A stretch of 64,000 bases of DNA from Macrophomina tecta (lineage: Eukaryota; Ascomycota; Dothideomycetes; Botryosphaeriales; Botryosphaeriaceae). Where the stretch lies: contig JAKSGN010000005.1 of NCBI GenBank assembly GCA_024180945.1, positions 3,534,001 through 3,598,000 on the forward strand, given 5' to 3'. Under the pieces are notes generated by a model. The model searched no databases and was not told the DNA's origin. It saw only the letters and a program-made list of their open reading frames with translations. The position numbers were made by a program, and so were the translations under genes. This document shows positions 5,296 through 59,672 of this stretch, piece by piece; the stretch's first letter is position 1, and the number at the start of each line of letters is the position of its first letter.

Positions 5296-5436
5296 GGGCG
5301 TATAGTAAGTTTGACTACAGATCCTCTCTCCCACAATTCGTTACTGACAGTCTTCACTAGGCTCAGTGGTAGAGCGCCCGCTTTGCAGATCCTTCTCGAA
5401 TGCGGGAGGTCTAGGGTTCGATCCCCTATTCGTCCA
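5296..5436 (+). tRNA. tRNA-Ala(UGC) with two introns, one spliceosomal-like
   Basis: The mature RNA is 72 nt, assembled from 5296-5304, 5361-5387 and 5401-5436. The D stem is GCTC/GAGC, the anticodon stem CCCGC/GCGGG with loop TTTGCAT (anticodon TGC, 5384-5386), the T stem TAGGG/CCCTA with loop TTCGATC. The acceptor is GGGCGTA/TTCGTCC, with the alanine identity pair G3:U70 and one T6:T67 mismatch; the discriminator is A. The B box GGTTCGATCCC is intact. A 13-nt intron sits at the usual 37/38 position (5388-5400). A second 56-bp insertion (5305-5360) separates nt 1-9 from nt 10 onward. It begins GTAAGT, has ACTGAC at 5343-5348 and ends CACTAG, which is the pattern of a GT-AG intron. The 3' two-thirds is certain. 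That 5296-5304 is the true 5' end is inference, but the length, pairing and splice signals all agree. Confidence 0.8.
5305..5360 (+). other. GT-AG type intron inside tRNA-Ala between nt 9 and 10
   Basis: This 56-bp element interrupts the tRNA exactly at the boundary between position 9 and the D stem. It carries a perfect fungal donor (GTAAGT), a consensus branch site (ACTGAC, branch A at 5347) 13 nt before the acceptor AG, and a pyrimidine-rich segment in its middle. Length and signals match the protein-gene introns in this window (47-70 bp). A bulge-helix-bulge motif typical of endonuclease-excised tRNA introns was not evident at this junction by eye. Confidence 0.65.
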
Positions 5437-5437
5437 C

Positions 5438-5443
5438 TTTTTT
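5438..5443 (+). terminator. Pol III terminator (T6) of tRNA-Ala(UGC)
   Basis: A run of six T residues starts two bases after the tRNA discriminator, the expected RNA polymerase III stop. Confidence 0.75.
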
Positions 5444-7667: not shown

Positions 7668-10600
7668 ATGGCCACCATGGAGCTCGACACCCGGAGCCGC
7701 TCGCGCAATGGCTCCATCGTCCCCGTTGCCCACGCGCGCCCAACCGTCGCCGACCTGAATGGCGAGAACCACTATGCCCAGGTCGCGCGCAAGCACTGGC
7801 TGGACTGTTCCAAGCCGCCCAAGGTCCGCCCGCAGGTCGTCAAGGACGAGCTGTGGGACAGCTTGGAAAAGGACGATTTTCCCTATCCATCGCTGCTGAT
7901 CTTGGAGAATCTGCAGCTTCTGGAAAAGTACCTTTGGCCCGGCTACACCGACGACGCGTCCAACCACCATGTCCTGCTACTGGCCTTGCTAGTCAACGTC
8001 AAGCGCAGGGAGAATCTGGCTTCCTGGGGTACCTATCGAGCGCCTGGTTTCCCACAGTCCTCATGCTGATCGTGTGACAGAGCATTTCGCAACTAAGCCT
8101 TCCGAATTTTCCTCCTTCTTCCGCCGCATCCTCTCCATGGCCATCGACTCCTCTCTCTCCTCCAAAATCCGCACCCACCTGATTTCTTTCGTCATTGGAG
8201 CTTTCCAGTCCCTGGACAGTGGCCTCGTGCGCAAGGAATGTGCCCCATTGGTCTCAATCGCCATTTGGCAAAACTTACACAGTGAATCTGCGCGGGAGGA
8301 TAGGCTTGAGAAGAACGTTATGCTGCGCAAGGCATGGAGGTCGGCTGGGAAGAAGTACGACACCGGAGATGATGGAGTCAAGACCAAATTGCGCTTCGAG
8401 CGCGCATGGCTGTATACTCTCCTTCTGGATTTCCTGAACAGGATCTATGACACATCCCGAGCGCGGGATTCGGAGAACTTGCGATACTGCGAGCGCTTTG
8501 TCGAATTCATCACTGACCTAGAGAGTCAACTGCCTACCCGCCGTTACGTGAACACCCTTCTCCAGGACCTCAACCTTCTGCCGGCCATCCAACTCTCCCC
8601 GCTCTATGCCGATGAAGAGAACGGGCTTTTCCGAGATCTTTTCGTCCTCCTGAGGCATTTCGTATTCTTCCCCATAGATGACCAGGTCGGCCAGCAACAG
8701 TCACCTGTGGAATACCACCAGGCCCAATGTGCGAAACTGGCGAGGCTCCAAAGGACCGCAATCAAGCACTTCCCCTCGAAACTCACCCTCTTGGCACTCT
8801 CCAATTATGGCTCTCTAGCCCTACGGCCGGACCTCGAGGCTCACCTGGAAGCGTTAACAGTAGAGGAGCTGGTGGAGCTATGCAAGCTTATGGGTTTCCG
8901 GACGGAATACCCCAAGTCCTCGCTGGTCGTCCAGGACCGGGCTTTCTTCACGGAGCTGATTGTATCGGCGCATGAGGGGAAGCCGACTTTCCAAGATTCT
9001 GTCAGAGAAATGACCATTCTTCCCACGGAACGGACACTCTACGAGGCCACTTTCCTCCGCAACGAAAACTATGATGGATCAAGGCCATTAGCAATCCCAA
9101 AGTTGAATCTTCAGTATCTGACTCTTGGCGACTTCCTCTGGCGATCATTCATCTTGCACCGGTGTGAAGCCTTCTACGAGATCAGAAAGGATATGGAGGA
9201 TGTGATCAAACGTCTACAGCGGAAGAATGTTCGGGGAACTGTCCAGTTCAGCGGCAATTCCAGAATGGCTCTGCCAATTTCGAAGCCTGCCATCACCGAC
9301 GTAGCCCCGGCCAAGGTTGGTGAGACTTCCCCGTCTAAGGTACAGGCTGAAGTGATCTTGGATGTCAGTCGCCTGAACTGGAATGTTGTCAAGGAGTGGG
9401 AATCCTTACGCACTGATGATGTTGTATATCTCCTCTCAGTTGATCCTCCGGAAGACACCCGTGCCGTCAGGAACGGCGGCGCCCCACCATCTGGCGCCGA
9501 GAAGATTGGTCTGAAGTACCTGCGTTGTGCCGAGGTCGTGCAAGTCTTGGACGAGAATGGACGACAACTACGTGACAAGAATGACGAGCAAGGAGGCCAG
9601 GGACGCAAACCTCGCCAGCGCAGGATAATTCTCAAGATTGACGGCAAGATTTACCAGGAGGACATGGACCGCGTCGCCAAAGGATACCCCAATCCCTATG
9701 ACTCGATTAATTTGATTGTCCGTCGCCGTGGCCGGGAGAACAACTTCAAGCCAATTTTGGAGTCCATCAGACGGTTAACTCTCTCTGACCTCCCCGCACC
9801 GTCATGGCTCCAAGAAGTTTTCCTCGGTTACGGAGATCCCGCTGGTGCCACATATAAACGTCTAGCCAACAGACTGAAAAAGATTGATTTCCGCGATACG
9901 TTTCTTAATTGGGGTCATCTTGTTTCCAGTCTCGAGGGCAAGGCGGTGGAACCTGCTGACGATACGATGGGAAGTTTTGGTCCACCCTACGTCCTAGAGT
10001 TCCCTGAAGAGGATCCCCAGGAGGCGCCAGCGCGGCCTTCGAAGAAGCGCAGACGCACCAAGACAGAAGCGCCCGAACCTGCCCAAAACGGCCCCGAGGC
10101 TGTACGCGTATCAACATACAAGCCTCCCAACATGGGTCCATATCCGACCGATGCACCTAAGTTGAACTCTGTACCTTTCACCCCGGCGCAGACTGAAGCT
10201 ATCACTTCTGGCACTCAGCCAGGTCTCACAGTCATTGTCGGTCCACCAGGAACAGGGAAGACCGATGTCGCTACCCAGATCATCAACAACATCTATCATA
10301 ACTTCCCTCATCAAAGGACACTTCTTATTGCTCACAGTAACCAGGCGCTCAATCAGCTCTTCCAGAAGATTGTTGCCCTTGACATTGACGAGAGACATCT
10401 TCTTCGCCTTGGTCATGGTGAAGAAGAACTGGAAACGGAAGCGAGCTATAGCAAGCATGGTCGTGTGGAATCATTCCGTGAGATTGGCTCTCGTTACTTG
10501 GCTGAAGTGGACCGTCTCGCTGCCAATTTCAATGCTCCTGGTGCGCACGGTCAGTCTTGCGAAACTGCTGGTTATTTCAATTCCGTCTACGTCCAGCCTG

Positions 10601-12098
10601 CCTGGACTAAGTACTGGAATGCTGTGGAATCTGGTGAATTGAATGACGAGGACATGGTTGTTCAATTCCCATTCCACCAATACTTCTCCAACGCCCCGCA
10701 GCCCCTATTCCCTCCAGGATCATCGAGAGAAGCGCTGATGGACATCGCTGCCGGATGTTACCGTCACATTGAAAAAATCTTCTCGGAACTCGAGGACATA
10801 AGGCCTTTTGAAATTTTGCGGAGCCCGAGGGATAGTGCAAACTACCTCTTGGTCAAAGAAGCCAGGGTTATTGCCATGACTTCTACCCACGCAGCAATGA
10901 GGAGGCAAGAAATTGCCAACCTTGGCTTCCATTATGACAATGTAATCATGGAGGAAGCTGCGCAAATCACTGAGATCGAGAATTTCATCCCTCTCGCACT
11001 GCAGAATCCCAAGGATGGAGAGCTTCCCCTGCAAAGAGTAGTCTTGTGCGGTGACCACCTCCAGAACTCACCCGTTGTTCAGAACTTGGCCTTCAGACAG
11101 TATGCAAATCTGGAACAGTCGCTCTTCCTCAGGTTGGTAAGGCTCGGCGTTCCTACAATCATGCTCGATCAACAAGGTCGCGCAAGGCCAAGCCTAGCGG
11201 AGCTGTACAGATGGCGTTACCCTAAGCTTGGCAACCTGCCCGCCGTTGAGTCGAGTCCGGAATTCCAGAAGGCCAACGCTGGTTTCCGGTTTGACTACCA
11301 ATTCATCAACGTACCTGAGTACAAGGGCCGTGGCGAAATGGAGCCAACACCGCACTTCATCCAGAACCTTGGCGAGGCCGAGTATGCCGTTGCTCTATAC
11401 ATGTACATGCGCTTGCTCGGATACCCGGCTTCGAAGATCTCCATCTTAACCACGTACGCTGGTCAGAAGGCCCTGATCAGAGACGTGCTGTCCCACCGCT
11501 GCGCGAAAAACAGGCTTTTCGGCATACCCAGGATCGTCACGACGGTCGACAAATACCAGGGCGAACAGAACGACTGTAAGTTCTTCCCTTTACACTGAGC
11601 ACCTCACAATTGGGTCAATCATATACTAACGTTTTCTCAGACGTCATCCTCTCACTCGTCCGCACTGCGCGTGTCGGCTACCTCCGCGACATCCGCCGTC
11701 TCACCGTCGCGCTCTCGCGCGCCCGCCTCGGACTCTACGTCCTTGGCCGCCGTGAAGTCTTCGAGGCATCGTACGAGCTCAAGCCCGCGTTCGACATCCT
11801 GCTCCAGCGCCCGGACAAGCTGGCTCTCGTCACCAACGAGATGTTTCCGACAAGCAGGGACTTGGCGGACGAGGTTGAGGCGACGGAAATGGAGGGAGTG
11901 GAGCATTTGGGGCAGTATGTTTTTGAGATGACGAAGGCGAAGGTCGAGGCGTTGAAGGCGAATGGTGGTGTGCTGCCACCGATTGAGCAGATTCCGAAAG
12001 TGGAAGAGGACATGGATATGGATGAGGCGGAGGAGGATGAGGAGGATGAGGGTGACGACGGGTTGGACGACAATGAGGGGGAAGAGGAGGGAGCGTAG
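7668..12098 (+). CDS. cwf11: Intron-binding spliceosomal RNA helicase Aquarius (Cwf11)
   Basis: Superfamily 1 (Upf1-like) helicase that binds intron RNA upstream of the branch point in the activated spliceosome. Three exons: 7668-8028, 8081-11575 and 11641-12098, with introns of 52 and 65 bp (the latter with a perfect ACTAAC branch site). The protein has 1437 aa, close to the family's usual length. The N-terminal half is the helical ARM-like scaffold (KHWLDCSKPPKVRPQVVKDE, SNHHVLLLALLVNVKRREN). The helicase part carries Walker A GPPGTGKTD at about residue 841, motif II as EEAAQ, GDHLQ, QQGRARPS and YQGEQND split across the last intron, then RRLTVALSRARLGLYVLG. The C-terminus is a Glu/Asp-rich tail. 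Two in-frame ATGs lie 9 bp apart, both in CACCATGG context; the first was used. Confidence 0.96.
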
Positions 12099-20216: not shown

Positions 20217-20303
20217 TGGACACTGTGGGAATTGAACCCACGACCTTTCACATGTACATTTTACTAATGCGAAGCGAAAATCATACCCCTAGACCAAGTG
20301 CCC
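20217..20303 (-). tRNA. tRNA-Ala(CGC) with 15-nt anticodon-loop intron
   Basis: Acceptor stem GGGCACT/AGTGTCC includes the G3:U70 pair that marks alanine tRNAs; discriminator A. The anticodon stem is TTCGC/GTGAA with one G:U pair, and loop TTCGCAT gives anticodon CGC (20271-20269). A 15-nt intron lies at 37/38 (20253-20267). The T arm is GTGGG/CCCAC with loop TTCAATT. The D arm (GGTCTAGGGGTATGAT) resembles fungal tRNA-Pro more than the tRNA-Ala(UGC) in this window, so identity rests on the anticodon and G3:U70. Confidence 0.9.
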
Positions 20304-59551: not shown

Positions 59552-59672
59552 CGACGCGGATGGGACTCGAACCCACAATCTTTGCCATGCTCCAGGACCA
59601 TTAAGGTCTTGCCGGGGATTTTTTTGCCCTCGGTCTCCGGAAAGCAACGCCTTACCATTAGGCCACCGCGCC
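59552..59672 (-). tRNA. tRNA-Arg(CCG) with 49-nt anticodon-loop intron
   Basis: Acceptor GGCGCGG/CCGCGTC (one G:U pair), discriminator G. The D stem is GCCT/AGGC, the anticodon stem TTGCT/GGCAA with a closing T:G pair, the loop TTCCGGT gives anticodon CCG, and the T stem is GTGGG/CCCAT with loop TTCGAGT. The intron occupies 59588-59636 at position 37/38; it is long for a tRNA intron and contains an internal GACC...GGTC pairing and an A7 run. B box GGTTCGAGTCC is intact. Confidence 0.9.

Follow-up and report, generated by a model that had tools for sequence, protein, structure and literature searches.

Introns of the mRNA type are known in several structural RNAs, and what is new here is their presence in tRNA genes, a class thought to be free of them. 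Rogers et al. reportedly described, in 1993, an mRNA-type intron in the nuclear 18S rRNA genes of fungi. Like the introns described below, it interrupts a fungal gene for a structural RNA, but the product is an rRNA and not a tRNA. The U6 snRNA gene of fission yeast also carries an mRNA-type intron (Tani and Ohshima 1989, 1991, cited in PMC10484740), which, in the available portion of that source, is thought to have been derived from reverse splicing near the catalytic nucleotides. The two cases share an mRNA-type intron in a small RNA polymerase III RNA of an ascomycete, splicing being a prediction in ours; however, U6 is an snRNA and a component of the spliceosome (PMC10484740, same portion), unlike the five kinds of tRNA considered here.

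As far as the available portion of PMC4090602 goes, most eukaryotic tRNA introns lie at position 37/38 and are cut by the tRNA endonuclease, the exceptions being found in nucleomorphs and in Cyanidioschyzon merolae. These exceptions resemble the present genes in that nuclear-type tRNA genes are interrupted at non-canonical sites, including the D and T arms, and sometimes by several introns. They differ in that a bulge-helix-bulge is critical for the tRNA endonuclease in C. merolae, whereas the introns tested here are without that motif, and in that the introns of the Guillardia nucleomorph measure 3–24 nt, against 52–58 nt for the GT-AG introns found here (PMC4090602, same portion). The part of a 2026 review that was available states that GT-AG signals are not used in tRNA splicing (PMC13149111). 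A preliminary description of the present locus had also known of no established GT-AG intron in a nuclear tRNA; likewise, we found no report of one in the open-access literature, subscription papers and bioRxiv being mostly outside this scope.

The window analysed here is a stretch of 64,000 nucleotides of Macrophomina tecta (contig JAKSGN010000005.1). Near its start lies a tRNA-Ala(UGC) gene that appears to be interrupted by an mRNA-type GT-AG intron, the removal of which by the spliceosome is predicted, and at least ten further genes of this genome are of the same kind. From the sequence, we put the probability of this reading at about 0.92. The features of the gene are listed in Table 1, together with those of three other interrupted genes. 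The preliminary description had proposed a split tRNA-Ala(UGC) with its first exon displaced upstream by 56 bp, and all of its features, including the intron start, the branch motif and the intron end, were found in their places, exact to the base.

Table 1. Features of the window tRNA-Ala(UGC) gene (positions in the window) and of interrupted tRNA-Ala(AGC) genes elsewhere in the genome
Feature	Position	Strand	Basis
tRNA-Ala(UGC) exon 1, GGGCGTATA, nt 1–9, holds G3 of G3-U70	5296..5304	+	sequence
Putative GT-AG intron, 56 nt, tRNA position 9/10	5305..5360	+	sequence; C27 paralog (start C27:314057) interrupted at equal position
5′ splice site GTAAGT of this intron	5305..5310	+	
Motif CTGAC of the branch site; its A at 5347, 13 nt from the intron end, is the presumed branch point	5344..5348	+	
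3′ splice site CACTAG of this intron	5355..5360	+	
A-box-like TAGGCTCAGTGG, last 3 nt of intron plus exon 2	5358..5369	+	what we take to be the A-box consensus
Exon 2, nt 10–36, D arm to anticodon UGC	5361..5387	+	
Ordinary anticodon-loop intron, 13 nt; tRNA endonuclease type judged by position	5388..5400	+	
Exon 3, final 36 nt, last base is discriminator A73	5401..5436	+	
B box GGTTCGATCCC, unbroken	5415..5425	+	
T6 run, RNA polymerase III terminator-like	5438..5443	+	
tRNA-Ala(AGC), 53-nt GT-AG intron after GGGTCTGTGGTTTAGTGG	C32:1827892-1828040		
tRNA-Ala(AGC), 58-nt GT-AG intron after GGGTCTGTGGTTTAGTGG	C3:879740-879898		
tRNA-Ala(AGC), 56-nt GT-AG intron after GGGTCTGTGGTTTAGTGG	C2:456051-456200		

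When the 56-nt insertion and the 13-nt anticodon intron were both removed, a 72-nt tRNA with G3-U70 was obtained, and ARAGORN called this 72-mer a full tRNA-Ala(tgc). In the unspliced locus, ARAGORN found no tRNA with anticodon-loop introns allowed, and the Rfam tRNA model matched the gene only at model positions 9–63. On recounting, six of the seven acceptor pairs were present, as had been claimed (G1-C72, G2-C71, G3-U70, C4-G69, G5-C68, A7-U66), the single mismatch being a U-U at 6/67. G3-U70 is the pair that marks a tRNA for alanine, and chance flanking sequence would hardly be expected to provide it. A chance origin of exon 1 was rejected by shuffling the 250 nt upstream, with the AG granted: a fitting exon plus 5′ splice site arose in one of 20,000 dinucleotide shuffles, and an exon, a 5′ splice site and a branch motif together in none. 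It may be noted that the three splice signals are common and, taken alone, say little: the combined motif occurs 10 times on the plus and 18 times on the minus strand of the whole window, and 8–15 times in five plus-strand shuffles.

The genome (54.1 Mb in 37 contigs) was then used for comparison; contig C17, which has a dense tRNA cluster and looks mitochondrial, was excluded from the tRNA counts. The spliced window tRNA, used as a DNA query, matched one other locus, on C27, and the match again started at nt 10. This second Ala(UGC) gene reads GGGCATGTA, followed by a 52-nt GT-AG intron at 9/10. Its anticodon intron again measures 13 nt, and another GT-AG intron, of 56 nt (GTAAGT..GCTAACC..GCAG), interrupts the T loop between U55 and C56. 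The two spliced tRNAs, each of 72 nt, have the U-U at 6/67 in common and show nine differences, namely, both sides of four stem pairs and one loop base; all four changed pairs are compensatory.

A count of intact Ala(UGC) genes had been suggested in the preliminary description. No uninterrupted Ala(UGC) gene was found, either by a DNA similarity search, which skips very common words, or by a search of the genome for a UGC anticodon loop followed by a B box, a pattern that requires the canonical B box; the only other copy found was the one on C27, also interrupted at 9/10. The pattern occurred at 12 places, including the window gene. Two of these read as Cys, three were Val introns and one was on C17, while the remaining five could not be recognised as genes for Ala(UGC); three of these five are near-copies of one another.

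In all, GT-AG insertions were present in at least 11 tRNA genes of five kinds, with 12 introns among the window gene and ten more. A 54-nt insertion (GTATGT..CTACTAAC..ATAG) lies in the D stem of the Arg(UCU) gene (C2:1075105-1075230), after nt 11, and the acceptor of this gene contains three G-U pairs. The similarity search gave no second Arg(UCU) gene; four Lys(CUU) genes, at 82%, ranked next.

An interrupted copy of the initiator Met gene was first shown by an ARAGORN call in a neighbouring locus. Each of the four initiator genes found (on C18, C6, C37, and C35) has a GT-AG intron of 55–58 nt after nt 23. Because all four carry the intron there, the four main matches of the initiator search all began at nt 23; three short matches were the detached 5′ exons. 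As the search was made with the joined 72-mer, an intact copy would have come first, and no uninterrupted initiator gene was among the matches. In the C35 gene, acceptor pairs 6 and 7 (AGCUGAA with UUCAGCU) have both partners altered, one on each side of the intron. The initiator-exon patterns had no match in viral contigs. Eight matches in prokaryote genomes were rejected as chance, none being followed within 200 nt by CTCATAA, the initiator anticodon loop.

Among the six Ala(AGC) genes found, three have a GT-AG intron at 19/20 (Table 1) and the other three are uninterrupted, reading GGGTCTGTGGTTTAGTGGTATAATACTCCC unbroken, which is an exact empty site. All six share one mature sequence. Similarly, one of the three Phe(GAA) genes found is interrupted at 30/31 and the other two have the exact empty site. 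The interrupted one (C29, near 1380347) has 57 nt, GTCAGT..GACTAAC..CCCAG, after ..GCGCCAG, in addition to an ordinary anticodon intron, and its spliced product was called a tRNA by ARAGORN. An ARAGORN Phe call at another locus (L081) was not counted as Phe, its sequence being unlike the other three. A search based on CTGAC gave no further interrupted tRNA gene; the extra matches of the CTAAC searches were Val(AAC) genes, which have CTAAC within the anticodon loop, and chance matches.

The origin of these introns may be considered at this point. The preliminary description had suggested insertion of introner-like elements, and the introns could belong to these, or to some other family of mobile introns, having entered tRNA genes only recently; such an origin would be compatible with spliceosomal removal. 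The presence and absence of the intron among the Ala(AGC) paralogs, whose mature sequence is the same, and among the Phe(GAA) paralogs means gain or loss, and the end of the Phe intron, CCAG, repeats the last four bases of its upstream exon. On the other hand, no family sequence was seen among the 11 intron interiors compared, the best pair being 0.59 identical, where shuffled initiator interiors average 40%, and the diverged initiator introns at one common position suggest age. We regard a recent spread as unlikely.

The comparison of paralogs (the Ala(UGC) pair, and the C6 initiator against those of C35, C37, and C18) gave eight changed stem pairs. All eight are double compensatory changes, each to another standard pair, and in five of them the partners lie on opposite sides of a GT-AG intron. 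Intron 1 separates two such pairs in Ala(UGC), the second intron of the C27 gene separates one pair of the T stem, and the other two are in the C35 initiator. The initiator exons are 86–100% identical, while the intron interiors are 37–59% identical against a shuffle mean of 40%. Since the stem changes are compensatory, the exons conserved, and the intron interiors near the shuffle level, we infer that the joined product was kept functional as the introns diverged. For any organism, an initiator tRNA is essential to life.

These comparisons bear on the suggestion, also made earlier, that the window gene is a pseudogenised copy, in which the 5′ end would have decayed or been displaced and the upstream 9-nt match would be due to chance. 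The gene does have one acceptor mismatch, and 5′-truncated copies exist in this genome: a Gly(GCC) at C2:3305807 and an Asp(GTC) at C5:2397003 have no exon 1 in the upstream sequence examined. However, the shuffles did not once yield exon, 5′ splice site and branch motif together, and the only other Ala(UGC) found is a diverged paralog with the insertion at the identical place, its four double changes being compensatory and accompanied by a single loop change. An intact Ala(UGC) was not found, and neither was an intact initiator. Decay of the window gene is thus very improbable, and the spliceosomal reading, first proposed for this gene alone, is strongly supported by the ten other interrupted genes, by the exact empty sites of two tRNA kinds and by the compensatory changes that span introns. 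It may be noted that the Gly(GCC) and Asp(GTC) copies (L118 and L120) are true 5′-decayed copies, which calls for caution with truncated tRNAs in this genome.

All 12 introns are 52–58 nt long, start with GTNNG and end in AG. The 5′ ends are GTAAGT in five, GTAAGC in three, and GTAAGA, GTATGT, GTTAGT, and GTCAGT in one each; the 3′ end is YAG in 11 and AAG in one. One YTRAY motif lies in the branch region of every intron, with its A 10–13 nt before the end. Judged from the exon lengths, the insertion sites in standard numbering are 9/10, 11/12, 19/20, 24/25, 30/31, and 55/56, none of which is 37/38. The spliced products of the 10 intron genes other than Phe are 72 nt long and have 20 or 21 of 21 stem pairs. 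By comparison, none of 69 anticodon-loop introns predicted by ARAGORN had the combination of GT, branch motif and AG, even with shifts of 3 nt allowed. These 69 come from 85 nuclear ARAGORN predictions after repeats were removed by sequence; the count is approximate, and a few are mispredictions, some at the interrupted loci themselves.

A splice-and-rescan of 154 sources (309,509 bp, overlaps included) was also carried out. From 774 GT..YTRAY..AG candidates, 15 tRNA calls spanning the junction were obtained. Ten of the 11 genes were represented among them; the other calls were alternative splice positions at those loci and one spurious call (L023). The two-intron gene of C27 was missed and came from similarity. 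Shifted controls gave tRNA calls in 10 of 925 and 10 of 911 cases. As the controls also yield calls, a bare ARAGORN call does not discriminate, and weight was put instead on full pairing, empty sites and paralogs.

Could the tRNA splicing endonuclease remove these introns, as it does the non-canonical tRNA introns of Cyanidioschyzon, nucleomorphs and archaea? Such introns of the nuclear type have been described, and several may occur in one gene (PMC4090602, available portion). When 11 of our introns (all but that of Phe) were examined for a bulge-helix-bulge, however, none had it, the best showing three of four central and two of three outer pairs. The tRNA endonuclease needs no GT, branch motif or AG, and all 12 introns have all three. 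Cutting by this enzyme appears very improbable. Group I or II self-splicing introns were rejected, since these have a conserved catalytic RNA core of hundreds of nucleotides and 52–58 nt is too small for it; at gathering thresholds, Rfam detected no ribozyme across the window, nor at the loci on C27 and C2.

We return to removal by the spliceosome. The tRNA precursor would probably be made by RNA polymerase III, because a T4 run lies within 45 nt in nine of the ten intron genes other than Phe (the exception being the C37 initiator) and the B boxes are unbroken in the interrupted genes except that of C27. Near the interrupted Phe(GAA) gene, no T4 run was present within 40 nt. The GT-AG intron would then leave the precursor through lariat splicing, as in fission yeast U6, and the tRNA endonuclease would cut the anticodon intron where there is one (Ala, Phe). 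Maturation may be completed by RNase P, RNase Z and CCA addition. The order, location and polymerase of this processing are what we infer from the gene structures.

The hard spot of this scheme is how the promoters of the two Ala(UGC) genes would be used. With the intron at 9/10, about 60 bp lie between the start of exon 1 and the A box, although the TAG at the intron end would rebuild most of an A box. In the C27 gene, the B box is in addition split by the intron at 55/56. As a separate observation, the second intron of the C27 gene, while splitting the B box, starts with GTAAGTTCGAAAC, which is B-box-like, and the internal promoter may be partly rebuilt within the intron.

We consider it quite probable that a second tRNA-splicing pathway operates in this fungus, in which the spliceosome would mature five kinds of nuclear tRNA, in some cases (Ala, Phe) acting on a precursor that the tRNA endonuclease also cuts, and protein synthesis would depend on pre-mRNA splicing. 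The dependence of protein synthesis and of its initiation is suggested because every initiator gene found carries an intron. To our knowledge, tRNA splicing has hitherto been credited to an enzyme separate from the machine that splices mRNA. If the reading is true, this division is broken and translation initiation is tied to mRNA splicing. It would also suggest that, in some fungi, essential tRNAs may escape tRNA finders. The Ala(AGC) paralogs, with identical mature sequences and with or without the intron, would make a clean system for the study of intron gain, and the entry of RNA polymerase III transcripts other than U6 into the spliceosome becomes directly testable.

The introns of a protein-coding gene nearby were compared with those of the tRNA genes. 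The AQR gene adjoins the window tRNA gene, and its protein is 99% identical to that of Macrophomina phaseolina MS6, followed by a match at 92% and by Diplodia corticola at 89%. The fungus belongs to Botryosphaeriales, Dothideomycetes, in agreement with the Dothideomycete affinity suggested by the preliminary description. Two AQR introns, placed by means of the 99%-identical homologue, lie at 8029-8080 and 11576-11640 of the window and are GT-AG introns of 52 and 65 nt. The earlier remark that the tRNA insertion matches nearby protein introns in length is thus true for the two checked, both of AQR. They belong to the same length class as the tRNA introns, and the branch-like motifs CTGAT and CTAAC lie near their ends, as in the tRNA introns. 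Unlike the latter, they interrupt a protein-coding transcript.

Some further observations were made on the tRNA genes of this genome. The window has two more tRNA genes with ordinary anticodon-loop introns, at 59552-59672 and 20217-20303, both on the minus strand; the second is called Cys(gca) by ARAGORN, but its loop reads more like Pro(CGG). Anticodon-loop introns occur in 69 of the 85 nuclear ARAGORN predictions (nuclear loci examined, repeats removed by sequence, a few mispredictions included), which makes the set very intron-rich, and the longest one noted is 67 nt, in a Gly(GCC) gene. At about 110160 of C23 (L113), a tRNA-like stretch has a good T arm, GTGGGTTCGAATCCCGC, without a clear anticodon arm. 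The 3′ flank of five of the six Ala(AGC) genes (L127, L164, L133, L154, and L142) has a short hairpin with a B-box-like core before the T run. The cores are CTGGTTAGATTCCAG in three, and CTGGTTCAAATCCAG and CTAGTTCGATTCTAG in one each, and the hairpin looks like an extra, extragenic B box.
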